A DNA stretch of 64,000 nt, taken from positions 262,884 to 326,883 of the forward strand of contig NW_022985566.1 of assembly GCF_010093815.1 (NCBI RefSeq), in the 5' to 3' direction. The DNA is from Pseudovirgaria hyperparasitica (Eukaryota; Ascomycota; Dothideomycetes; Acrospermales; Acrospermaceae). Numbering within the stretch: the stretch's first letter is position 1; the number at the start of each line of letters is the position of its first letter. The position numbers and the translations under genes are program-made. This document shows, one piece after another, positions 10,955 through 50,476 of this stretch. Under the pieces are notes generated by a model. That model was not told the DNA's origin and ran no database searches. It saw nothing but the letters and a program-made list of their open reading frames with translations.

Positions 10955-13731
10955 TCAGACTCCCAGCCACTCATCGACCACACTCGTGCTTCTTCTCTTC
11001 CTATCTTCATCGACCCCGAAGCCCAGCTGTGGTAAAGTCTCTATCTTGGGTGGCGGCTCTTTCTTCTTCATCGGACTGCCTCCCTTGACGCTTTTGGTGG
11101 GGCTGATCTGCCCAGTTTCCCCCATTCTCACTGCTTTGGCGTCCCAGCCGTCATCTATAGCCGCCAAAATCCATTCCCGCAAAACATCATGTATGTGCCC
11201 ATAAAACTTTTCTTTGCAAGTACGAAGCGCTCCGCCCATAACCTTCTCAAACCCTGACGCTCTCAGCTCGGCCCTGAGCTTGTTTCGTTCGGTCACGGTC
11301 GGTATGGAAGCTATAATTCCGTTCAAGAGATCCATATGGGTAGCAAGGTACTGGGTGGCATCCCATTCAACACCTCCTATATATGGGGCAGCCGGGACTG
11401 GAGGCCGTGGCTGTGGAAAGTGGACCATAGTATAGTCTTGCTTAGGACCACTTGTCATAAGTGGGTACGAATAAGGACGTGATAATGGCGCCGATGAGGA
11501 GCCTTCCGAACGTATCGAAGGTTCTTCCATGGCGGCGTTAGAGGGCAGTGGAATCACGTTGAGATGATGGAGAAAAATCCAGAAGACTTCCTTGGTCACG
11601 TTCACGATCTCGCGGCACCAGATCCGATATGGGCGAGGTTGATGCATCTCTAGGATGAAAGCAAGAGGCTTTGCCTCTTCTGGGGGAGCAGGATCTTGAA
11701 GATACCCTAATATGGTTCGTGCACGTCCTGGGAGGTCCGACCCTCGAGCAGCACACAAATGAGTGACTGCTTCATATTAGCATCTATGCAACGCAAGAAA
11801 GCGTAGCTTCCGAAACTCACATAACACTCTGATCACAATCTCCCGGGTTGTGAACTCGCTTGGGCCCTTTCTTTCCTCGTCGAAAAGCATCTTCAGAAGT
11901 GTGGGAAAGAGCTTCGACTCGTATTCACATAGTTTATGGAGGGCAAGACTCGTTGTGCACAGTCCCTTCAAGCACAAAAGGGTCTCGTGGAGCAATGCAT
12001 CTTCATGCTCTTCCCTCCATTCCAGCTCCAAGATACGATCGATCAGGCCTACCACGTCTCCCATACCACCCTGGCTGATGAACGAATCGACCCACGCAAC
12101 GGTTTCATTGCGCAGTAAGAGACGTAACTTGTGCAGTTTCCCGACTTCAACTTCTTGAGGTTTTGTAGTCTTGCGTAGATAGTTTACGAAATCTTCTGGG
12201 ACAGCTGTTTTTGTAGATTTCGAAGAGGATGAACTCTTTACTGAAGTGACGGATGATAAAGACCGCGATGAAGGCGATTTAGCTATTGTATGTGGCTTAT
12301 CGGACTTGGTTGCATTTGTCTCTTCAGACTTTGGTTTCTTGGTTGGTGAGTCTCCTTTATTAAAGGTGAAAGTCCGGCTTCGGGGGCGCCCCTTTTTGGA
12401 GGGTGAAACATCAGACCCGTTTCTATGTTTTTCATCATCTAATTTCTGACTATTAGTTGATCTTCCTGTGCTGGAAACATCTGAACAATTCGGCAAGGAT
12501 CCCATCATTTCAGCGGATCCAGAAGGTGAGGCCCGCGTAGGTCCTGAGCTTTCTGTCTTGTGCTTCATGATGAAGTCAATCTTTACACGGTCGGCCAATG
12601 TTCTCATTCTGGAGCGGACGACATCTGGTACATTCCTCGATTCCTAACGGAGTAATTAGTATTAAGTCATATCTCTTGGTCGACGTTTGGCCATACCAGA
12701 ACTGCCTCAAACTCAATAGCAATGGTGTCAGGGTCCATAGAAGGCTCCCCTTGCACGTCTCGCGATTTTACGTTGTATGCAGCAACTGCAGCCTTTACTC
12801 GACCGCCCTTTTTCTGAGATGGTCCAACGAATCCAGAAGATGAGAACTTGCCCATAGGCTCTTGCTTGTAGCGTTCGACTGGTACCCTTGCGTGTGGAAT
12901 ACGTTCTCTCTCGCCGCTTATCTTGCGTTGCATGCTGTCTAGTAGTGAAGACATTGATGAATCATGTGGTAGGTGCTCAGATTTCGGTCGCGGAGCAGAT
13001 GTACTTCTGCTTTGTAAAGTCGGTCGAGCAGAGGCTTGGAAATTTATCTGCTTCGATGGAGAGTAATCCGTAGGCGTATATTTGACGATTTCTTCCTCGG
13101 CGACGTGGCGATCGCTGAGTGCAACGGCAGAGGCATTGGGCGCAGTCTGGTACGACTGCGAGCGAAATTGAGACCATATTGGGGTTTCAGCGATTCCGTT
13201 TGCCGAATTTGGAGGTGTAGTGTTTTCTTTGTCCTTGGGTTCGATAGGAATCGGGTGCACGTCGCCACGGGATTTTCCGATTCCAAACATGTTTGATATG
13301 CCTGTTGATGACTTTGTCTTCTTGGGCTGCTTGGACACATCCTTGATGAAATGGGGAGGTGTATCTTTTGGCTCTTTATCTCTTACAAATGATCGTAATC
13401 GCATGGAACCTTGAGCCTTTTTGCTCGGGCTCCCTTGCGTCGTACTAGCCCTAGCTTGTTGCTTGCTTGTGGAACGCGAGCCAGCTGGGTTCGAGATTTC
13501 GCCCAAAACTCTGGCACTCGCTGCTTGTTGAATGTTTAATGGAGGAGCCAATATTGGTTGTGATGTTGAGCTTCCATGGGTATGTTCGCTTTTCGCCGAT
13601 TTGAAAAGGGCAGTACCGTCTGACGGAGCTCTCTTGTGAGGTGATCGAGAGGACATGATCGATTTCAAGACAGTGGTCGACCTGTTGCGGCGGTGACCAC
13701 TTTTCTCTGGTGAGCTAGCAGGCGTAGCCAT
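10955..13731 (-). CDS. GTPase-binding protein, Rid1 type (Drf_GBD/FH3)
   Basis: Three exons (13731-12697, 12643-11821, 11766-10955) give about 889 residues. The N-terminal third is disordered and basic (repeated Ser-Pro, Arg-Ser). Starting at the exon 1/2 junction is a diaphanous-type GTPase-binding segment (IEFEAVL|ESRNVPDVVRSRM), and after a Ser-rich insert comes an armadillo-like FH3 region (DFVNYLRKTTKPQEVE ... LLRNETVAWVDSFI). No FH1 or FH2 follows, so this is not a formin but matches the fungal proteins annotated as GTPase-binding protein Rid1. By family inference it would bind Rho/Cdc42-type GTPases in polarity or septation. I start at ATG 13731 (MATPASSPEKS), which looks conserved; an in-frame ATG at 13890 would add a 53-residue segment that looks like leader. 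The name comes from memory of the family and was not searched. Confidence 0.8.
11767..11820 (-). other. rid1-like intron 2
   Basis: A 54-nt intron, T|GTGAGT to AAGCAG|TC, phase 1. Joining restores the FH3 reading VIRVLFTHLCAARGSD. Confidence 0.85.
12644..12696 (-). other. rid1-like intron 1
   Basis: A 53-nt intron, CTG|GTATGG to GTTAG|GAA, phase 0, placed inside the GTPase-binding segment. Confidence 0.85.
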
Positions 13732-14633
13732 CTTCGCTTGACGGTCAATTGATGGTCGACTAAGCAGCTGCGATGACTTACAGCGACAATCAAATATACA
13801 AATGCGCGAGCAGCATATATATATTTCGCTCGGAGTGATGTAGGGGATTCGTAGAGAGGGTTGCGGTAGAGTTCTACGGTCAGCATACACTCGAGAATGC
13901 GAAGTTGGTAGGCATTACTATGTAGCTATTGATGCGTTGCGAGGGGCAACAACAACCAAGGAACCAGATGCATTCGTGGCCGTGCTTACCGCTAGGCCAT
14001 GTATGGCGTGTGGCGCATGAATTGTATTCTTCGCCTTGGACATGTTGACCTGCAAGCATGTATCCATTGTCGAAGTCTAAGTTTCGCTGTCACTCTTCAC
14101 TTTTTGAAGGTACACGCGACTATGAATCTCACCACGATGACAAAAGTAGTATGCCTGCTAGTTTGCAATCATCCCACAGAAGAATGTATGACTGTCAGGA
14201 AGAGTTTAAAATTCTTAAACTGTTGACTACCAAGCCAGAAATCATTTTCAACCATAAATATGAAATAGTGAAGCAAACACTCCCGAGGTGACCAACTTCG
14301 ACGCCCGCAGAGCGTTCCAGAATGCCTATTTAACATAATGATAAACACGTCGCAGACTATCTATGATCCTACGACGTGATGACATTATTGTAAATGTTAT
14401 GTGTAGTTCTTTCATCAGCACTAAAGTAACTCTGTGGATGAGACACTGCTGCGGAACGGGTTTTAGTGGCTGGTGTTCGATAAGCGAGGGTTCTCTGGTT
14501 CCGATCGGGTCCATATAAAGGGTAATTACCGATCGATGATGTAGTGATGCGAACATCGACCGTGGGCTTCATTGAATATGTGTGTCCGAGGCTCCATACT
14601 TGTGCTTTTATTCTATGTACTGTCGAGCTTCTG
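13732..14633. other. Divergent promoter region, rid1-like gene and photolyase
   Basis: About 0.9 kb between the rid1-like start (minus) and the first likely photolyase ATG (plus). No convincing gene. A GGGTAATTACC element sits at about 14519-14529, close upstream of the photolyase, and belongs to a motif that recurs in other intergenic regions here. Confidence 0.45.
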
Positions 14634-16412
14634 ATGTTCTACACTCATCTATATCATATCCGTCTAACACATTCCCTACTCCGTAGAAAGCTCATTCAGC
14701 CCTTTAGGAGCAGACAATGCTCGTGTAGGTGCTATCGTGCATCATTACGCACATCCTCGACAACAAACCTGACGGGTTGGAAATCTAAATCAAAGATGTC
14801 AAAACATGAACGATCATCATCGCAGACCGACGAACTTCGACACCCACATACAAAGCGTGCGAAGGAGATTGACGCACATACGCCCTTAGACGAATTGAAA
14901 GAAATTCTTGAAGACGCGCACAAAGTCTCGGAGGTGAAGACAGTTCTTCATTGGTTTCGCTCCAAAGACTTGCGTATCAACGACAACAGAGCCTTGGACG
15001 CCGCTTCCAAGATTGCGAAGGAGAACAAAGCTCCACTGATTACCGCATATCTTTATTCACCAAAGGATTTGGAATGGCATGGAACCAGCCCTGCACGATC
15101 AGATTTCATTATTGAGTGCCTCCGGCTCATGAGGGAACAACTGAGCGAGAAGCATATTCCTTTAGCCATCATTGAGGCACCAGAGCGCGGAGACAAAACA
15201 GAGCAAATTGTGTCTTTCGTCAAGAACAATGACGTGTCCCACGTATACGCAAATCTGGAATATGAAGTTGACGAGTTGCGACGCGACAAGAAAATCACAG
15301 TTCAGCTGAAGGATGCAGGCATTGCCGTCGAACTCGTGCACGATCAGACTGTACTAGAACCTGGCGTTATACTTAACGGAAGTGGCGGTCCACACAAAGT
15401 GTTCACCCCATATCACAAAGCGTGGCTCTCAAAAATTAGCAGCAGTCCGGATCTTCTGGACCTCTATAGCGATCCAGAACCTAACGAGAAATCTGTACTG
15501 AGCAAGTACAGACCGCTATTTGACACAGCGCTTCCATCGTTACCAGAGAACAAACAATTTGGTTCCAAAGACGAACGCGATCGAATTCGTAGACTGTGGC
15601 CTGCTGGCCATGATGCGGGTATGGCGCGACTCGAACATTTCGTGACCAACAAATTACAGACATACGCAGAGACCCGCTCCAATCCGGCCAAAGACTCCAC
15701 GAGTCGCTTATCGCCATACTTCTCATCTGGGGCAATCAGTGTTCGCGAGGCTTTAAATATGGCAAGGAAGCAGAACGGGGGAAGCACGGATTTCAGTGAG
15801 TCGAGTGGCAACCGTGGTCTTGCTGCGTGGGTCCGGGAGATTGTGTTCCGCGAGTTCTACAGACAGGTTGTGGTTATTACACCTCACACTGTGATGAACC
15901 TGCCGCAAAACCTCAAGTTCAATTTTGTGCAGTGGGAGGACGACAAAGAAGGATGGGAGAAATGGTGCGGAGGAAATACAGGCGTTCCCCTGATTGACGC
16001 TGGTATGAGGCATCTGAAGGAAGAAGCCTGGATGCACAACAGGTTGCGGATGAACACCGCTAGCTATCTCAGGAATAACCTGCTCATCGATTATCGACGT
16101 GGAGAACGTTACTTTGCAGAGCATTTAGTGGATTGGGACGTCTGTAACAACACGCAGGGATGGGAGCCAAGTTATACTGTTTTCAATCCTGTTAGCCAAG
16201 CAGAGCGCAACGACAAAGATGGAGAGTACATCCGAAGATGGGTCAAGGAGCTGCGAGATGTCGAAGGAAAAGCGGTGTTCGCTCCACATGAGAGACTAAG
16301 CAAGAGTGAGTTTGAAAAGCTAGGATATCCGCGGCCGCACGTCGATTTCAATGAGACAAAAGAAAGGGCGGTAGCAAGGTATAAGCGTGATCTCCACCGC
16401 GCTGATCCATAA
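14634..16412 (+). CDS. Divergent class I photolyase/cryptochrome
   Basis: A single-exon frame of about 592 residues. The antenna domain is evident (VLHWFRSKDLRINDNRAL; EYEVDELRRD), as is the FAD domain (TGVPLIDAGMRHLKEEAWMHNRLRM, RRGERYF). These enzymes use light and FADH- to split cyclobutane pyrimidine dimers or act in light sensing. Compared from memory with E. coli PhrB, W306, N341, M345, N378 and W382 are kept. W277 is Phe (codon 15846-15848), W359 is Tyr (16092-16094), and W384 is lost with about ten residues of the following loop (16158-16190). W277 and W384 sandwich the dimer in classical enzymes, so CPD repair is doubtful. Possible starts are ATG 14547, 14634 and 14796. The stretch 14634-14795 has no Asp or Glu and is rich in Arg/Ser/Leu, like a mitochondrial presequence, while ATG 14796 has the better context. 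The family is certain, the activity is open. Confidence 0.88.
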   Translation: MFYTHLYHIRLTHSLLRRKLIQPFRSRQCSCRCYRASLRTSSTTNLTGWKSKSKMSKHERSSSQTDELRHPHTKRAKEIDAHTPLDELKEILEDAHKVSEVKTVLHWFRSKDLRINDNRALDAASKIAKENKAPLITAYLYSPKDLEWHGTSPARSDFIIECLRLMREQLSEKHIPLAIIEAPERGDKTEQIVSFVKNNDVSHVYANLEYEVDELRRDKKITVQLKDAGIAVELVHDQTVLEPGVILNGSGGPHKVFTPYHKAWLSKISSSPDLLDLYSDPEPNEKSVLSKYRPLFDTALPSLPENKQFGSKDERDRIRRLWPAGHDAGMARLEHFVTNKLQTYAETRSNPAKDSTSRLSPYFSSGAISVREALNMARKQNGGSTDFSESSGNRGLAAWVREIVFREFYRQVVVITPHTVMNLPQNLKFNFVQWEDDKEGWEKWCGGNTGVPLIDAGMRHLKEEAWMHNRLRMNTASYLRNNLLIDYRRGERYFAEHLVDWDVCNNTQGWEPSYTVFNPVSQAERNDKDGEYIRRWVKELRDVEGKAVFAPHERLSKSEFEKLGYPRPHVDFNETKERAVARYKRDLHRADP

Positions 16413-16857: not shown

Positions 16858-19800
16858 GAATCTCAAAAGGTCCATGCGAATCCTTTCAAGGGATTGCAAG
16901 GGCCTTCCAAAGGCTCGAGGAGGCACGCCAAACATCCAAGAGAGCAAAATAAGCCCAGACGATCGAATTTAAGACATGGTCGTCCGAATGATACGACGAC
17001 CTACACGCGAGATGCTGTAAAAGCAAGATTCACTGTCCCAACTACTGAAAGATATCCCAATTTGGGTCCCAAGACATTGAAAGAGATATTGTTACCAAAG
17101 CCGCTTGACCAGCTCGTAGCAGAATACTACCATGACAAACTTATAATCGAACTACAAAACAAAGAGACCAATAAACGAAATGCAAAGCGCAAAATCAAAC
17201 TCACGGCTACGATCAAGACTTGGGACGACCAACAACTACATCTCATTGGCGAAGGACCCAACACGCAAGATGCACGCAGCGCTATGAATCTGCATTTGCT
17301 CTGCCTCTTGCACGAAAGAGGGCTCCTAACGCACTTCACTGAGATACCTTTCGTAAGGATGCAAGATACGAACGGTATGCAACCGGCGCTTGTAAACGTA
17401 TATCAATACGCTGCCCAGCTGGATACATTGCCAAACATTGTAACGAAGAAGCCGAGTGAGGACACGATGAGACGCGCTACAGCAGCTCACATACAAGAGC
17501 TGTGGGAAACGAGAATTGAATTTGCGAAACAAGGTATAACCGCCATTGGCTTGGGTGAAACTACGTGGGCCGCTGAACAAGGCGCTGCTCTGCATCTTGG
17601 AAAGCAAATCCAGGAATACTTCCAGCAGACCGGTCAAAAACCCCCGTCAATGGAAGATCCTTACACCCTGAATCTTTCTACCATTGACCAGTTCGTGACT
17701 TTCGCTAATAATGAATTTCGCTCCCTGCTGACTGCTGATGTTCGGAGAGTGAGTTATCAAGAATTTCCTGATTCATCAAGGAAGCCTCACGACGCATGGG
17801 TAGCAGAAGCTTTTCTTAATAAGTCAAGCAAACTTGGTAACAAAGTATCTTTGCGCACAGAGCATGATGCCCGAAACGCCGCTCTCCTAACTGGAGCGAT
17901 CGCTTGGTGTCAGGAAAAGGACGGGCTTCGGAAACTATTTGAGTCTACCTTACGCAACAACAAGGGAGTAATTTTGCGCCAACCCCGTGACATCGTACTT
18001 ACGCCACGCCATGACCTACTATCTACAATGGAGGAGCTATCAGAGAGACTAAGGAGTGCAGGGCTTCTCAAGGAGACACATGTACAATCCTCAAGCACAC
18101 CAGGACTGGAAAGCGCTGAGTACAAATGGCATACTTCAGCGCGTCCGATGCTAAGCGACGACGTTCGCAACAATGACCTGAAAGTACGTCTTGAGAACTA
18201 TCGTAACATCGAAGCGACGTCCGAGATGCGTACAAAAAGAGACGCGCTACCGATCAATCAACACCGTTCCAAGATAATGGACATCGTATCCGAATTTTCT
18301 CATAGTATTGTCGTTGGAGCGACGGGATCTGGGAAAACAACTCAAGTGCCTCAAATGATCTTGGACGCTGCAATAGAATCCGGGCAAGGAACTCGGTGTA
18401 ACATAATATGTACGCAGCCCCGAAGAATTGCGGCGATATCCGTTGCTAAACGCATTGCTGAGGAGCGCCATGAGAAGTATCAAGATACGATAGGACATCA
18501 AGTACGCTTCAATGTGAAGCCCCCAAGGGAAAACGGAAGTATACTGTTTAGCACAACTGGCCTGCTGCTCAAACAGCTCCAGGTTGACCCCGATTCGGTT
18601 TTCGATAAGATATCCCATCTTGTCCTTGACGAAGTCCACGAAAGAGATATGATCCTGGATTTCCTCCTTGTTGTACTAAAACAGAGCTTCCAGAAACGAC
18701 AGGGAGAGGGAAAGCCTGTCCCCAAACTTATACTCATGAGTGCGACCATGGACACAGAACTATTTGCAGATTATTTCAAGGTGCAAAATTTGGCTGGCGA
18801 AATGGTCCCATGTCCGTCCATCGTTGTCCCTGGTCGCTTGTTTCCCGTGAGAAACCAATATCTGCATGAAATTCACAATCTACTCAAAACCGAATATGGC
18901 AGCACTTATAGCTCGGACCTTTACCGACTCTTGGATGAACGAACTACCAAAGCGTATCTGGAGAGCGAATACGCATTTGCAAAGAACCAGGCTATGCCTA
19001 AGTTGTCGCAAAGGCTCGATACGGAAGATAAGTCGGTCGATCGTGCAGAGGCATTGATACCTACAGGCCTCGCTGCTGCTACCGTTGCGCATATAGCCAA
19101 GAGCACTCATACTGGCGCCGTACTGGTTTTCCTGCCTGGGCATGCCGAGCAACTTGAAACGGAACGCCTGCTTACCGCAAAGCCAATCTTTGGACTCGAT
19201 TTCAAGAATACTGCGAAGTTCAAAGTCTCTATTCTTAATTCCCAAACTCCTTTGGCGGATCAAGCCACGGTTTTCGACCCTGTGCCAGATGGATGTAGGA
19301 AAATTATACTGGCAACCAATATCGCCGAAACCTCTGTCACTATCCCGGATGTCCAGCACGTTATAGACTCAGGAAAGATGCGCGAGATGCATTATGATGT
19401 CGAGTCACGAATCAGAGCCCTCCAGTGTGTGTGGGTTAGTAAGGCAAACGCAAAGCAACGAGCTGGAAGAGCTGGGCGTGTGCAAAACGGAAACTACTAT
19501 GGCTTATACAGTACTGAGCGTCTCGACAGTCTGCAGGTGACGAGCACGCCTCAAATTCTTCGCGCGGATCTTCAAGATGTTTGCTTAAGAGTAAAGACCC
19601 ATGATATCACTGGGACTATAGCTGGGTTTCTGCAAGGAATGATACAACCCCCAAAGTCTGCGGATGTTGAGATAGCCGTCGATCGACTAATACAACTCGG
19701 AGCGTTGAACCACGATGAGAGTATTACGTCGTTGGGAAAGCTTCTGGCTGATCTTCCCGTAGAGCCAGCTTACGGCAAGATGATCATATGGGCCGTCTTA

Positions 19801-20637
19801 TTCCGATGCCTTGATCCGATTTTGATCCTGGCTGCGTTGTCTAATTCAAGGCCCCTCTTAATGACGCCTACCGGGGCTCGGCGCGAATGGGGAGTCGCTC
19901 ACCGAAAGTGGTTTGATGGTAGAGGTAGTGAGCATATCGCTGAAGTTAGTGCGTTCAAGCATCTGCGGCGTACTATTGCCATTACTGGAGAGCACAGAGG
20001 AGGTCGATTCGCGCATGAGCATTTCCTGAGTAAACTCGCCTACACGCACATTCACAGCGTTGCCGAGCAGATTGAGGACGTTCTTGTAATGCACGGTTTG
20101 ATTCCGAAGACGCCTCCATATGCTCGGTATAGATACTGGTTTGGGGCAAGGCAGTTGAACGAGAACAGCCTCATCGTTCCTATGCTCAAGACAGTGGCGT
20201 TAGCCGGATTCACCCCAAATCTGGCCATGCATACACGCGGCAACTGGTTTCAGAATCGGTTGTCGGACAAGGTGATGGTGCATCCGAAGTCACTATTGAA
20301 CCCATATTTGCTCAGAGGCCAGGAGACGGTAAAATTGGGATCGACCATGTTCACCTACTCGTCGATATCCAAAGCGGACCAATCTTCGAACGACCAACTG
20401 CATATCAACAAATTGACGGAGGTTACGCCACTCAACGTTCTACTCTCCGGGGGCGAGATGCAGCGCAACAAGAGAGCCTTCAACAAGCTGACAATCGGTG
20501 AGTGGCTAGGCATATACGTGAAGCCCACAACAGAGGAAGGGGACAGAGTTAGTAAAGCATTCTCAACTATCTGCAGGTTTCGAGAGGATGTTGATCGTGT
20601 AAGGACAGCAGCTCCGATGATAGCAACACTGTACTGA
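16858..20637 (+). CDS. DEAH-family (DEVH) ATP-dependent RNA helicase; 5' end unresolved
   Basis: A long open frame codes more than 1240 residues. Counting residue 1 at 16894, the helicase motifs are: I GATGSGKTTQVPQ at about 475; II DEVH at about 579; III SAT at about 616; VI QRAGRAGR at about 855. HA2/winged-helix and OB-fold regions follow to about 1200. The N-terminal 450 residues include a dsRNA-binding-like alpha/beta stretch near 120-150. This resembles the DHX29/DHX36/DHX57-like group of large DExH helicases, which remodel RNA or ribonucleoproteins; the subgroup is my inference. No in-frame ATG occurs before the conserved N-terminal region: the first lies near 17284, and the frame is open upstream to 16702. 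A spliced first exon is therefore expected (candidate at 16632-16646). The N-terminus is basic and could suit a mitochondrial or nucleolar location, but this is not shown. Confidence 0.87.
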   Translation, partial: ESQKVHANPFKGLQGPSKGSRRHAKHPREQNKPRRSNLRHGRPNDTTTYTRDAVKARFTVPTTERYPNLGPKTLKEILLPKPLDQLVAEYYHDKLIIELQNKETNKRNAKRKIKLTATIKTWDDQQLHLIGEGPNTQDARSAMNLHLLCLLHERGLLTHFTEIPFVRMQDTNGMQPALVNVYQYAAQLDTLPNIVTKKPSEDTMRRATAAHIQELWETRIEFAKQGITAIGLGETTWAAEQGAALHLGKQIQEYFQQTGQKPPSMEDPYTLNLSTIDQFVTFANNEFRSLLTADVRRVSYQEFPDSSRKPHDAWVAEAFLNKSSKLGNKVSLRTEHDARNAALLTGAIAWCQEKDGLRKLFESTLRNNKGVILRQPRDIVLTPRHDLLSTMEELSERLRSAGLLKETHVQSSSTPGLESAEYKWHTSARPMLSDDVRNNDLKVRLENYRNIEATSEMRTKRDALPINQHRSKIMDIVSEFSHSIVVGATGSGKTTQVPQMILDAAIESGQGTRCNIICTQPRRIAAISVAKRIAEERHEKYQDTIGHQVRFNVKPPRENGSILFSTTGLLLKQLQVDPDSVFDKISHLVLDEVHERDMILDFLLVVLKQSFQKRQGEGKPVPKLILMSATMDTELFADYFKVQNLAGEMVPCPSIVVPGRLFPVRNQYLHEIHNLLKTEYGSTYSSDLYRLLDERTTKAYLESEYAFAKNQAMPKLSQRLDTEDKSVDRAEALIPTGLAAATVAHIAKSTHTGAVLVFLPGHAEQLETERLLTAKPIFGLDFKNTAKFKVSILNSQTPLADQATVFDPVPDGCRKIILATNIAETSVTIPDVQHVIDSGKMREMHYDVESRIRALQCVWVSKANAKQRAGRAGRVQNGNYYGLYSTERLDSLQVTSTPQILRADLQDVCLRVKTHDITGTIAGFLQGMIQPPKSADVEIAVDRLIQLGALNHDESITSLGKLLADLPVEPAYGKMIIWAVLFRCLDPILILAALSNSRPLLMTPTGARREWGVAHRKWFDGRGSEHIAEVSAFKHLRRTIAITGEHRGGRFAHEHFLSKLAYTHIHSVAEQIEDVLVMHGLIPKTPPYARYRYWFGARQLNENSLIVPMLKTVALAGFTPNLAMHTRGNWFQNRLSDKVMVHPKSLLNPYLLRGQETVKLGSTMFTYSSISKADQSSNDQLHINKLTEVTPLNVLLSGGEMQRNKRAFNKLTIGEWLGIYVKPTTEEGDRVSKAFSTICRFREDVDRVRTAAPMIATLY

Positions 20638-37218: not shown

Positions 37219-39458
37219 CTACACCAACAGCACATCCCTCCTCCGAGCCCTACGCACACAACGCTCGTCAAACACACAGCCAATCCCAACTCTCCTATAA
37301 GCCGGCGCCACAGCAACAGCACTCGTAGAAAGTCTCCGCCCACTCGCAGGAACCAACACCAAGACCCAACACCTGTAAAAGTCCGGCCACGCGGGATTGC
37401 GCTGCTCAAACAGGCTCAGACAGACGAAATCGCCCGTCTCTCTGCTGTCAACATCCAGACGCGCCATGCCAAGCATATCGCCCTTCCCAACACCGTCAAA
37501 AAGCCCGTGACAGCGCACGTTGCAGTCGGCCTCGGGGCTCCAGCCGGGGTATATGCCCCAGAGATGAGACTGCTGGAGGAGTTCCCAGGCGTCCATGGGG
37601 CGGGCGTGGAGAGTAGCGGTGCGAGCGTGGAAGAGGAGGTGAGTGGTAGCGGCGAGGGTGATATCGCCCGATTTATAGATTCTGCGGAGATGGGACAGGG
37701 TGCGGCCGGGCGAGGAGGGGTGTTTGATGAAGAAGGAGATGTTGCCGTCCAGGGCGGCCCAGGACCAGGAGGAGCAGCGGGGGGTGCTGGGCTTGCGGAG
37801 TGGTGTGGCGGCAGCGCTGCCCCATGCTAGGCTTTTGAGAAGGGTTTCGGTGGGCTGCATGATGTGGCCTGCGATGAAATGCGTGTCGTGTTGCTCTGTG
37901 ATGCGGGTCATGATGCCGGATATAGCGGGTAGCTTGTCGCGCGTGAGCGTCATTTGGCATCTGCTGTACCGCTCGACGAGGGAGAGCCAGTCGTTGTGCG
38001 AGTCCCAGAAGGTGGCGGTGAATAGGCGTTGCTTCAGGGAGTGCAGCTTGTCGCCTGTGTTCGACTCGCTCTGGCGTCCGCTCTCGGACCAGATCCGGCA
38101 CTGGCACTCCCAGTGTGCTTGGGACTTGCAGAAATGGACGGTGCGTACGGAGAAGAAGCGTTCTTGGAAGACCCAGGCTCGTGAAGTGATTGGCAGGGTG
38201 TTCAAGTCTACTTCTTCGTGGTGCTTGATCTTGACAAACTCTTTGCCGGGATAGGACTGGTATGCTGATCCGAGGTGGACTTTTGAGAACGGGCTGGGGG
38301 TACTCCTGTGCTCTAGAAAGTGATGATGATCGCCGGTTGATTCTGAGGCCGAGATGGTCAGATATGCATTTTCGTAGATCGTCCCCATCATAGGGGCTTC
38401 TTCTTCCCAGTCCTTCAGGTCGTCCTGGATGATACACTATTACATGTAAGCTAGAGCGATGGATGAAGGATAAGAGTATACGACGAGCACAGAAAGGGAG
38501 CTATGATATAAGAAACATCCGTCATATCTCATCCTCGGACGCCGCTGAAAAACATACGAAAGGGGAGATGCTTACCAATGAATCTATCCATAGATAGCGG
38601 AAGCCAAGTAGACGTGTGACTCGAATGGCATCTGTGAAAGAATGCGGCAGCTGAGAAGCATCGACACGACTCTGTCTGTGCTTGTAGTTTGCTCGTACTG
38701 TACATCCTTGCTTATTCCTGCCCCATCGATGGCTCAGGGCAAGGTATTGAGCTTTCGTAGACGAATTGACGAGCAGACACAAGCGAGATCTGTTGTCGGC
38801 CTGAACATCCAGTATCCGCCGGGGCAGTCGTGTCATCGACGTGCGGCAAGCAGGATGTGCTTCGCATTTCGACATCCACATCTTTATCGTCGCTATAGTA
38901 CTGTCAAGATACGTGGTGGATCTCCAAGGAATGTATTCGGTGAGTAGATTTACTGATCAGCGCGGATTAGCATTGGATAGGCTTTGAGTTTGCAGCGGGA
39001 AACCACTTGAGTATCGGTCGACTCATGTCCTGTCACTGTAGGACCGGGAGAAGCTCACATTGATTAGTCGAGGCTTTTATCGAACCAAACTCACAGGCGC
39101 TCTTTAAGCTGGGAATCTTGATCACGACCGACTTTCGGGTAGGTGAAAGAAACACCAAGATCTCCATGGTCATATTAGCGGGTGTCAACATATGAGCAGT
39201 TTGCCATTCGCGTGCAATGGTTCTGCAGACAGCGCATCTCTCCCATGGTACCCGGTTAACGCCCTGTCCAAGGGTCACCATGCTCTTGGGAAAGCCATTG
39301 CGCTTGAGTACAATCCATATTAGTCTTTCGCACTGTATACACAGCTGCTGTGGCGATTTGAGTCGTTTCAAGGCTGTCATATTAGCATCGAGGTAGAGGG
39401 TCCAGAGATCGACATGGAATGTGGTGTTTTTGTCAGTCCTTGGCCGATACTTGATCAT
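37219..39458 (-). CDS. HET-domain (heterokaryon incompatibility) protein
   Basis: Three exons (39458-39059, 38952-38576, 38436-37219) join in frame to about 664 residues. The N-terminal exon has a Cys-rich start (LCIQCERL ... WERCAVC). Then come the HET signatures: a TYLDSTIATIKMWMSKCEAH lead-in, RILDV, QYLALSHRWG, LPHSFTDAIRVTRLLGFRYL, WIDSL|CIIQDD, YENAYLTISASES and RAWVFQERFFSVRTVHF. HET proteins trigger cell death after fusion of genetically different hyphae, or serve in wider fungal innate immunity; many copies have no known partner. The C-terminal 330 residues show no NACHT, WD or ankyrin module. ATG 39458 is the first in the frame; ATG 39380 is an alternative that starts just before the Cys motif. 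The domain is intact, with no internal stop. Confidence 0.9.
38437..38575 (-). other. HET gene intron 2
   Basis: A 139-nt intron, TTG|GTAAGC to TAATAG|TGT, phase 0. It joins WIDSL to CIIQDD, the invariant HET core. Confidence 0.88.
38953..39058 (-). other. HET gene intron 1
   Basis: A 106-nt intron, CAAT|GTGAGC to ATCAG|TA, phase 1. Confidence 0.72.
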
Positions 39459-47743: not shown

Positions 47744-50476
47744 TCAGAATCGAATGTCAAAGTCCCGCATCGCGACCGCAATCTGCGATCCTATCGAATA
47801 TACAGCATCTTCGTCCCGTCGATAAGTTGCATCAAGTGCATGGTCGACAGCCCAATCTCCGTTCTCCAATGCTCGTGGCGAGCCAGCGTACGTAACGTCG
47901 TCTATCTTGCGCAGTCGTCGTAGGACAAGATCACGCTGAGAGTCGGCGCTGGTCCATACATGAGACAGCTCCGTGATGCAAGCAAGGTTGGCCTCGACAG
48001 CCCTCTTGAGGCCCGGGAGTGTGTCACGGGACCCGCCAGCGGTGAGCACGTCCACGGCCGCTAGCAAGCTGTAGCCGAGAAAAGGAACTGCAGAGAACGA
48101 ACTTGGACGAGGAGAGCCAATGCGGTGAGAGTCTGCGTGTTGAAGATGGTGAGCAATATTGAAGAGTTGCTTCGCGTGCACGAGGCTTGCTTGAATATTC
48201 CTTTCCAGTTGAGTCGTAAGCGCACCGACTCTGACGTGTCGATTCAACCTAATAAAAGCAGTGTTGTACAAGCTGTGTAACGACAGGAATGATCCCGCGC
48301 AGTCTCGGTGGATACTACTCGTCAAGGCGTCGGGACTGTAACGTAAATCGTGCGGTAATTGAGCGTGCCATGCCTGAAGTTTGTGGTACATGCTGTTGTA
48401 GTGGTGCTCGTAGTAGTCAAGGTACGCAGCATTGACAGTCTTATTCAAGGCTCGGTCTGTCATTGAGAAGACTTGACCCCAAATGGCCGATACCTGGACG
48501 AGATAGGCCATTGTGCTCAGTGGAAGCTCGGTAGGAGTGCCGATGAGATCGTAGTCGAAGATTGGAGGATCCTGTGTGCGCTTCATGTTGTATTCCTGCT
48601 CTGTACATGGTAGACGAACGAAGGTGTCCTCGAGGTTGATGTTGCATTTAGTGCCACCGCAGAAGCCGTTGTAGCGGTCCATCAAAAAGCCAGACCAGAA
48701 CGTTCGCCTGCGGCATTCAAGCAGCTTCTCCCGGTCCAGCCCGTAAACATGGTCGCTGGGGTCTGCAATGTAGCAGATCACCTTCTCCGAGTTGAACCCT
48801 AGTGCGCTAATGCATCCCAGCGCCAGTCTGCAGTGATTCCATGACGCAGTTGTTTCACCACGTGCAAAGCAATACATGCCCACCAGAAGCCTGGCATGGC
48901 ATATCTGCAACGTCAGCTCACTGAACAGCGTTTTTAGCGCATACTCGGCGATTTCGTGCAACTCCTTGCCGTAAGCATGTCGGTCTGGGATGTGAGAGAA
49001 CAAGGATCCGATGGCGAGCATGCTGTACAACACCATACGATCTTGTGGAGTCTTCGAGCGGTTATGTTGAACCCAATGTACGATTGTATCTCTCGGAAAG
49101 AGGCAGTATGTTGCGGAGTTGAAGTGCGTAAAGTAGTGGTCAAGTAGTTCGAGAGTTACGGCTGGACTGATTTCGTAGGGATCCGTCAGCCAGCGATCTG
49201 CTTTTTCGTTCTCCGACATGACATGTCTCGCTGAATGGAGTGAGTTGTTGGTCGGAACGTGCTTGAGCTCAGGATCAGTGCCTGTGTGGTAACCAACGTT
49301 ACCAGCACTTTGGTTCCATCGTATTTCGTGGCGTGGAGGCGAGGCACCTTGCGGCTGTCTCGGCGCCAAATCGTGATCGCTTGTGCGTCGCATCTTCGTC
49401 GGTCTCGACCACTCTGGGGGAGCAGCGTTTGTGCTTACAACGGATGGATACGTCCCAGGGCTGCTGTGTGCAGTTCCGGCGGCTCTGTGAAGGGGAGAAC
49501 TAGTTTCTGAACGATGAGACTGAGAACGAGACGACTGCTGCTCGGTTGCTCCTCTGATGCAAAGTTAGCATGCCATGTAGACGTACAGATGTCTGCTAGG
49601 CGAGGAACCGGCTTACCCTTTACACGTTCGTTGAGACTTGGTGCACTGGGCACATTTGGGGAAGCCAGGATCACACTTGATCTTCTTTTCTCGACAAGTA
49701 AGACAGGCTTGGGCGAGTCGTTTCCGTGGTTTACCGGCCTTTGTGATACCCCAGCAAGGATTGACTGCCTCTCCATCGATTTCAGCAGGAACGGTGTTAC
49801 CATTGTCGTACTTCCAATGCTCATTGCCATGCTCATCATACACTTTACAGACGACCCTCGGAGCAAAATCCGGTGCACGCGGTACACTTTCAGCCCGTCG
49901 CTTTACACCGGCATGCACGCTTTCGGATGTATCGTGAATGGGATGTGGAGCAACGGAAGTGGCGCGCGGCGACTGGTGATGCAGCTGAGGGGCATGAGAT
50001 AGATGAGCCTGGTGAGGAAAGTAAGTGTCATGTGGTATTGGTATGTCTGGATCTGATCGCCTCCCAAGATATGGAGTTCCACGGCCGTCCAACGATTGCT
50101 GCCTGCTGAGTGTTGAGGATGATAGATGTCGTGGTGGTGAGTTGTGAACGGAGGTGGCAGAGTCGTGGAACGAAGAAGCTGGCGCCGGAGCTGGAGCTGG
50201 AGCTGGTACGTGATGAGATAGCGGACGTTGCGCTTCAGATATGGGTGGTGTAAGTATTTGAGAAATGCCAGGTAATTGGAGCTTTGTGTCCTTTGCAGGT
50301 GCGGCTGGGTCGGTGGGAGTTGCACGCTGAGTGGGATTCCAGTGTGGCATTTCGTATTGGGATTCTGATGGCGACGGTAGGCCTGGAAGTCGAGGATGCG
50401 AAGAGACGGCGTGCTGACCAGGCCACGAAGAAATTCCAGGATGCATCGGTCGAGGCTGAGGGCCAGCAAGAGACAT
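47744..50476 (-). CDS. Zn2Cys6 transcription factor with fungal-specific domain
   Basis: Two exons (50476-49617, 49553-47744) give about 889 residues. The first 200 residues are Pro/Ser/His-rich. Next is a conserved segment VVCKVYDEHGNEHWKYDNGN, then a GITKAGKPRKRLAQ basic lead into the binuclear zinc cluster at about 255-285 (C-x2-C-x6-C-x6-C-x2-C-x6-C; CLTCREKKIKC). After a linker the fungal_trans regulatory domain runs from about residue 380 to 640 (YEISPAVTLELLDHYFTHFN, ARLLVGMYCFARG, RRRTFWSGFLMDRY). It is a nuclear DNA-binding regulator of the Gal4 type. The zinc-cluster neighbourhood reminds me of the Moc3/Fcr1 group, but I would not name it on that. The long upstream desert, with a TAG microsatellite about 235 bp before the ATG, may carry its leader and promoter. 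Confidence 0.9.
49554..49616 (-). other. Intron of the Zn2Cys6 gene
   Basis: A 63-nt intron, AAAGG|GTAAGC to CATCAG|A, phase 2, with a GCTAAC branch site. It lies right after the last Cys of the zinc cluster. Confidence 0.87.

Follow-up and report, generated by a model that had tools for sequence, protein, structure and literature searches.

The window analysed here, a stretch of 64,000 nucleotides from Pseudovirgaria hyperparasitica (positions 262884-326883 of contig C18 in assembly G000, which comprises 35.0 Mb in 59 contigs), contains a gene, readable without any intron, for a paralogue of the class I cyclobutane pyrimidine dimer (CPD) photolyases. Judging from its sequence, the special feature of the encoded protein is the deletion of the bubble-intruding loop combined with the substitutions W277F and R397T (Escherichia coli PhrB numbering). 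We propose, tentatively and with slightly less than even confidence, that the gene is an old fungal duplicate of a class I CPD photolyase gene whose product has lost efficient repair of CPDs in double-stranded DNA and may instead be a light or redox regulator. The features on which this proposal draws are as follows.

14796..16412, + strand: class I CPD photolyase paralogue gene, no intron required, 538 aa from the ATG at 14796; the frame is open upstream to 14544
14943..15440, + strand: N-terminal photolyase (antenna) domain, PF00875 (Pfam E 6.9e-40, far over cut-off)
15828..16385, + strand: FAD-binding domain, PF03441, residues 429-614 (Pfam E 9.6e-58, far over cut-off)
15846..15848, + strand: F435, replacing the dimer-stacking W277 of PhrB
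15933..15935, + strand: W464, equivalent to PhrB W306, the outer end of the electron-transfer chain, kept
16038..16052, + strand: N499 R500 ... M503, equivalent to PhrB N341 R342 ... M345, CPD contacts kept
16092..16094, + strand: Y517, replacing W359, the middle of the electron-transfer chain
16131..16163, + strand: D530 to W540 (DWDVCNNTQGW), keeping D372, D374, N378 and W382, which contact flavin adenine dinucleotide (FAD)
16161..16187, + strand: shortened loop (W)EPSYTV(FN), in which PhrB 384-393, that is W384 and most of the bubble-intruding region, are absent

Residues of the window protein are numbered on the 622-aa open reading frame (ORF), and PhrB residues in the style of the literature, with the initial Met not counted.

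A loop deletion coupled to changes at the dimer-stacking site

In classical CPD enzymes, W277 and W384 stack on the dimer. A sequence-only reading had placed a photolyase lacking both of these residues at 15846-16190, and these coordinates are right, 15846 being the first base of the F435 codon. The window protein was set against PhrB through its match to 1dnp (E 1.1e-75) and through a second alignment to E. coli PhrB taken from a plasmid record. F435 occupies the W277 site, as had been read from the sequence. Around the gap, W540 (16161) corresponds to W382 and E541 to Q383, PhrB residues 384-393 are absent, and P542 corresponds to P394, while T545 (16176-16178) replaces the conserved Arg397. 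The stretch from W382 to the FNP motif is 7 residues long in the window protein, whereas E. coli and this genome's canonical class I gene have 17. Relative to PhrB and the class I enzymes (1DNP; Anacystis 1OWL and 1TEZ), the protein therefore carries W277F, the absence of 384-393, R397T and W359Y, and has neither the stacking Trp277, nor an aromatic residue at 384, nor a full bubble-intruding loop with Arg397.

The bacterial and archaeal relatives used for comparison were the best 80 of at least 586 recovered by scanning for a pattern of two conserved peptides, which biases the set towards PhrB-like proteins; the 17-residue stretch, W277, W359, W384 and R397 are present in all 80. Sixty further loci were the best 30 from each of two genome surveys (the class of G004, with matches in 174 of 369 genomes, and the phylum of G001, with matches in 47 of 294) and overlap with the 80 by at least two genes (L087 = L064, L122 = L007). 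L115 was left out, and the 59 loci read all have the 17-residue loop and W277. A separate alignment, A2, was built from 52 hand-picked loci of the 80, reduced to 51 when L084 was dropped for an internal stop. The (6-4)-like and CRY-DASH genes of the fungus itself have 17 and 16 residues in the corresponding loop, counted on the sequence.

Loss of W384 alone is not special in fungi, because the canonical paralogue has Phe at this site and a published alignment has Tyr there in a fungal CPD enzyme (PMC7560933). The earlier claim that the W384 loop is missing thus stands for the loop, with residues 384-393 absent, and is less telling for W384 itself; since the changes extend to the bubble loop and its Arg, the observation is somewhat stronger than it was first stated. 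The Trp triad W382-W359-W306 reads W540-Y517-W464, in agreement with the earlier reading of Tyr at its middle position. One bacterial class I photolyase (L145) has Tyr at W359 (DYRRGE) together with a full loop and W384, and W359Y is weakened as a mark of lost repair.

At near-invariant positions, defined by at least 98% conservation in 82 other sequences, the window protein keeps 57 of 71 residues, and all 14 departures lie within PhrB 277-397. Ten of these 14 fall among the 13 invariant sites of PhrB 379-397; the hypergeometric P of 5e-7 is descriptive only, because five of the ten departures are one deletion. If the comparison is restricted to the 57 positions without any variation in E. 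coli and the 80 bacterial loci, 7 are changed in the canonical paralogue, W384F being one of them, and 11 in the window protein, every one of the 11 within 277-397. Since its departures are confined to 277-397, the window protein is no less conserved outside the lesion-binding half than the canonical enzyme is.

Cofactor sites, fold and subfamily

Both domains of the cryptochrome/photolyase family and the photolyase fold are present, which, together with the 622-codon frame, bears out the earlier assignment of the ORF to the class I photolyases/cryptochromes. An AF2 model, used for confidence and fold matches only, has a predicted local distance difference test (pLDDT) score of 93.7 over the core and 1dnp as its nearest fold; confidence is lower at the shortened loop, averaging 76 and 72 over blocks of 10 residues. 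The contacts to the folate antenna, methenyltetrahydrofolate (MTHF), are H179 (PhrB H44), D243 (N108) and E244 (E109). The antenna-site set of D243, E244 and M451 (Asp/Glu/Met) is shared with the canonical gene of the same genome, and residues of the same kinds, D246, E247 and M452, occur in a functional fungal photolyase (PMC7272715).

N536, D530 and Y374 represent the class I FAD contacts, and M503 represents Met345. In all, the protein keeps H44, E109, Y222, R226, T234, E274, R278, W306, N341, R342, R344, M345, D372, D374, N378 and W382 of PhrB. The FAD-facing Asn (N536 for N378) and the first and last Trp of the chain (W540 for W382, W464 for W306) are retained, as previously noted, and the earlier inference of a flavoprotein with a lost or changed DNA substrate is partly supported, in that the protein belongs to the photolyase family with its FAD site kept and its substrate site changed. 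Within DWDVCNNTQGW, W531 stands for Gly373, T537 for N379 and Q538 for G380. W531 (16134-16136) sits between two FAD-contacting Asp residues, at a position that is Gly, Ala or Tyr in 58 bacterial loci, and from its placement could be an extra electron-transfer residue beside Tyr517. The first strand (14949-14987), HWFRSKDLRINDN, is one residue longer than WFRQDLR in PhrB and HWYKRDLR in the canonical gene of the same genome.

The subfamilies of photolyases and cryptochromes differ at two substrate positions, which we assume to correspond to PhrB 345 and 384; the two residues given in PMC7560933 likewise lie 39 apart. Table 1 of that paper assigns Met and Trp to CPD enzymes, His and Trp to (6-4) enzymes and animal cryptochromes, Gln and Tyr to CRY-DASH, and Val and Tyr to plant cryptochromes, and states no residues for plant photolyase. 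At the first position the window protein has Met, at the second nothing, a pairing absent from all rows of that table. With Met503 it lacks the His of the (6-4)/animal cryptochromes and the Gln of CRY-DASH, for which it also scores only 170.2 of the 317.05 bits needed (TIGR02765). Its score for plant cryptochromes is 167.3 of 603.85 bits (TIGR02766), and it has Met503 and no C-terminal extension. The NCBIfam equivalog model NF007955 gives 347.5 bits versus 506 needed, a comparison in which the fungal control scored was only a 161-aa piece of the canonical gene. Like CRY-DASH, the window protein has the contacts of an FAD/MTHF flavoprotein, and its DWDVCNN resembles DYDVGSN of the CRY-DASH encoded on contig C1 of the same genome; unlike it, the window protein has a loop of 7 rather than 16 residues and Met rather than Gln at the first position.

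Kinship with the canonical class I gene

An exon-by-exon search of the genome with PF03441, introns ignored, gave five matches in four genes: the window gene, a canonical class I gene (C14), a (6-4)-like gene (C8) and a CRY-DASH gene (C1). The second, canonical phr gene for which the sequence-only reading had proposed a search is therefore present as a separate class I gene (G000:C14:607558-608198). It has a 50-bp intron, unlike the window gene, encodes 607 aa as joined, retains W277 and Arg397 as well as a loop of 17 residues, has Phe at 384, and is likely the CryA/PHR1 orthologue. The C1 gene, a partial protein, scores 385.5 bits with TIGR02765, over the 317.05 cut-off. The C8 gene, for which no family model exceeds its cut-off, is presumably of (6-4)/animal type by its motifs.

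The window and C14 proteins are 37% identical over 492 aligned residues. In trees built from class I-type rows, with this genome as the fungal representative and the loop and W277 columns dropped, the two group with class I as sisters, with support of 100/99 in 31 rows (28 of the 80 bacterial loci) and 100/98 in 71 rows (34 of the 80 and 34 of the 60 loci). In a tree that included the fungus's own CRY-DASH and (6-4)-like fragments, the pair received 98 in the Shimodaira–Hasegawa-like approximate likelihood ratio test; those two fragments are too long-branched to serve as an outgroup. A long branch leads to the window protein, with 1.79 and 1.56 changes per column in the two trees. On this sequence kinship, the window gene evidently stems from an old duplication in the fungal lineage, unless both class I genes entered together. 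Acquisition of an already shortened gene from bacteria was rejected, there being no short loop in the best 80 of at least 586 relatives or in the 59 loci read of the 60.

A survey of the phylum of G666 gave a match in 2 of 5 genomes. Viral contigs yielded three distant relatives with an alignment as query, no match with the single window protein and none with the motif, and phages and plasmids yielded 10 and 195 matching records, the latter all below 60% identity. No close relative of the window protein, and thus no close homologue with the same changes, was found in the bacterial/archaeal, viral, phage and plasmid collections searched or in the one fungal genome covered, its own.

Known fungal members of the family have been listed in several sources. 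A survey of 34 fungi reports class I CPD, (6-4) and DASH enzymes, with class II in microsporidia, and leaves its 'other' column empty for fungi (PMC9498864; see also PMC4564169). Exophiala viscosa has additional CryA-type genes (PMC10411609), and Knufia petricola has two putative CPD photolyases and Cryomyces antarcticus one (PMC11567843). With its two CPD-type genes the present fungus resembles K. petricola, whose second putative photolyase is likened here by description only. Neither a loop-deleted fungal class I paralogue nor the motif NNTQGW was found in the literature searched, and such a protein may be in print elsewhere; passages from PMC4059230, PMC4016680, PMC11362059, PMC5750222 and PMC10607740 do not mention the loop deletion.

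Reading frame and coding evidence

The ORF runs from 14544 to 16412 (+) through 622 codons without a stop. Codon log-odds, for which the window gene was scored against five other ORFs, are 0.107 per codon in frame over the gene body, identical to the 0.107 of the canonical paralogue; the other forward frames score -0.18 and -0.25, and the reverse complement -0.11. Because the ORF is intact and its codon usage matches that of the canonical paralogue, we argue that the gene is under constraint. The extension upstream of the ATG at 14796 has a non-coding-like score of -0.09, and the start at 14796 is preferred for this reason.

In-frame ATGs lie upstream of the starts of both class I genes (14547-14795 in the window, and 151-291 of locus L005 on C14). 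Both extensions are basic, acid-poor and, by eye, similar to a mitochondrial presequence; given codon scores of 0.03 (C14) and -0.09 (window), their translation is doubtful. A mitochondrial presequence gained through an upstream in-frame start of the window gene is not claimed, the extension being non-coding-like in score.

A proposed loss of duplex repair and its alternatives

We propose that the duplicate was kept as a working gene while the face gripping the flipped-out pyrimidine dimer was reshaped. The window protein would still bind FAD and MTHF and absorb ultraviolet-A/blue light. Because the stacking Trp277, the loop at 384, the bubble region and the Arg are gone, it would bind double-stranded CPD DNA poorly, the dimer no longer being sandwiched and the bubble no longer being filled. 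In class I and class II enzymes, side chains of the alpha17-alpha18 loop stabilise the unpaired bubble left by the flipped-out dimer, and in the class I enzyme of Anacystis the conserved residues of this loop include Arg404 (PMC6126647), the counterpart of PhrB Arg397 in the alignment. Ordinary CPD repair would thereby have been lost from the window protein and be carried out by the canonical paralogue instead. As the least certain steps, the freed flavoprotein might act as a light- or redox-responsive regulator, and its flavin redox state and altered pocket face might together form a partner-binding surface. The regulatory role is suggested by analogy with CryA of Aspergillus nidulans, which besides being a CPD photolyase has a part in gene regulation and in the response to oxidative stress (PMC12887071). 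CryA, compared here by description, belongs like the window protein to the fungal class I lineage and joins photolyase and regulator functions; unlike it, CryA is described as a canonical CPD I photolyase, and it has an N-terminal residue, Cys42, with no counterpart in the 538-aa protein.

Several points weigh against this proposal. E274, N341, R342, M345, R226 and R278 are all kept, which is more than a pure sensor needs, and because of these residues some CPD repair, for example of unpaired DNA, may persist. Bubble stabilisation in class I enzymes seems to be unspecific and passive, and no contact between Arg404 and DNA is seen in the solved complex, where the lesion linkage is altered (PMC6126647); loss of the loop may on these grounds cost less than supposed. 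Judging by the substitution, a Tyr in the middle of the photoreduction chain may weaken light-driven reduction of the flavin. Additionally, the protein ends 8 residues past PhrB 465, with no C-terminal extension of cryptochrome type, and its N-terminal extension from the ATG at 14796 has no Cys like Cys42 of CryA; a Cys is present in the upstream in-frame extension, which scores as non-coding.

It is possible, though we hold it with clearly less confidence than the proposed loss of duplex repair, that with the window protein a further fungal subfamily is described for the first time, derived from class I CPD photolyase by deletion of the bubble loop and amounting to an independent cryptochrome-like origin. 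How photolyases are converted into cryptochromes is a long-standing question, and in such a subfamily one could see how a repair enzyme became a regulator, through a single small deletion accompanied by linked substitutions. A canonical enzyme and a sister altered in its lesion-binding half also allow the loss of stacking residues and of the bubble loop to be tested in one background. The presence of two such genes has been read as a hint of better photoreactivation (PMC11567843); should the second one not repair, counts of fungal 'CPD photolyases' would overstate repair capacity.

The main rival explanation, which we regard as unlikely while giving it real weight, is a CPD photolyase specialised for unpaired DNA, such as single strands, loops, or transcription and replication bubbles. 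With no bubble to fill, the intruding loop and one stacking Trp would be dispensable, and E274, N341, M345 and the FAD site would do the splitting. The retention of E274, N341, R342 and M345 and of the FAD and MTHF contacts agrees with this, as does the Phe or Tyr already present at the W384 site in fungal class I enzymes (the canonical paralogue; PMC7560933), and for the repair of CPDs in loops or single strands there is the example of CRY-DASH (PMC4831468, PMC9498864). Nevertheless, both stacking positions are altered together and 384 is left unreplaced, whereas every subfamily with a stated residue has Trp or Tyr there (PMC7560933, Table 1).

It is less probable still that the protein is an ordinary second CPD photolyase in which stacking of Phe435 and one residue of the shortened loop on the dimer suffices for normal repair, given that ten loop residues and the conserved Arg are gone and that W277 and the 17-residue loop are found in 80 of 80 and in all 59 read of 60 bacterial loci. 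Action on some other substrate in the altered pocket, be it a different lesion, RNA or a small metabolite, appears very improbable, as does a structural or chaperone-like role that does not depend on light. The mouth of the pocket is rebuilt with T537, Q538, E541, Y544, T545 and W531, and PDB entries 7pua and 7pub, which we take to be kinetoplastid mitochondrial ribosome assemblies, hold a chain of the photolyase family listed only as 'DNA photolyase, putative'; yet Met503 and Asn499 are still of CPD type, and the flavin and folate contacts are kept although they would be superfluous for a structural role. Finally, a loop hidden by an intron or lost in assembly, or a degenerating gene, is barely credible: the evidence does come from one locus in one assembly, but the 622-codon frame is continuous, exactly 10 codons are lost in frame, linked substitutions occur at the otherwise invariant flanking sites N379, G380, Q383, F396 and R397, with W277F about 100 residues away, and near-invariant sites and codon usage are intact as described above, so that a hidden intron and an assembly error are rejected, no splice or assembly error accounts for the missing loop, and the gene is neither in decay nor an assembly slip.

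Upstream region and neighbourhood

14502..14535, + strand: two CGATCG sites (14502 and 14530), 28 bp apart around a TATA-like stretch, candidate light-response element

These two sites might represent a light-response element, a weak possibility: about 2.8% of the window's 60-bp stretches contain at least two GATC, and GATCGA is not enriched in the window (45 versus 41 expected). CGATCGATG occurs three times in the window versus 0.67 expected, and 6 of 100 shuffles contain as many. Upstream of the canonical photolyase gene on C14 (L005 40-72), three GATC sites start within 30 bp, 223-252 bp before the ATG; they resemble the pair found ahead of the window gene and are possible white-collar sites.

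The divergent upstream neighbour of the window gene (11777-12607, -) matches Drf_GBD, the diaphanous GTPase-binding domain of the formin N-terminus, and the downstream neighbour (16894-20637, +) encodes a 1247-aa DEAD/DEAH-type helicase with HA2 domains. Farther away, at 47744-50476 (-), a Fungal_trans ORF (47744-49393) lies beside a Zn2Cys6 ORF (49613-50476), and the two are probably exons of a single transcription factor gene, interrupted by an intron. Together with a HET gene, these Zn2Cys6/Fungal_trans genes suggest a filamentous ascomycete. An ORF at 37219-38391 (-) has a weak match to the heterokaryon-incompatibility (HET) domain.
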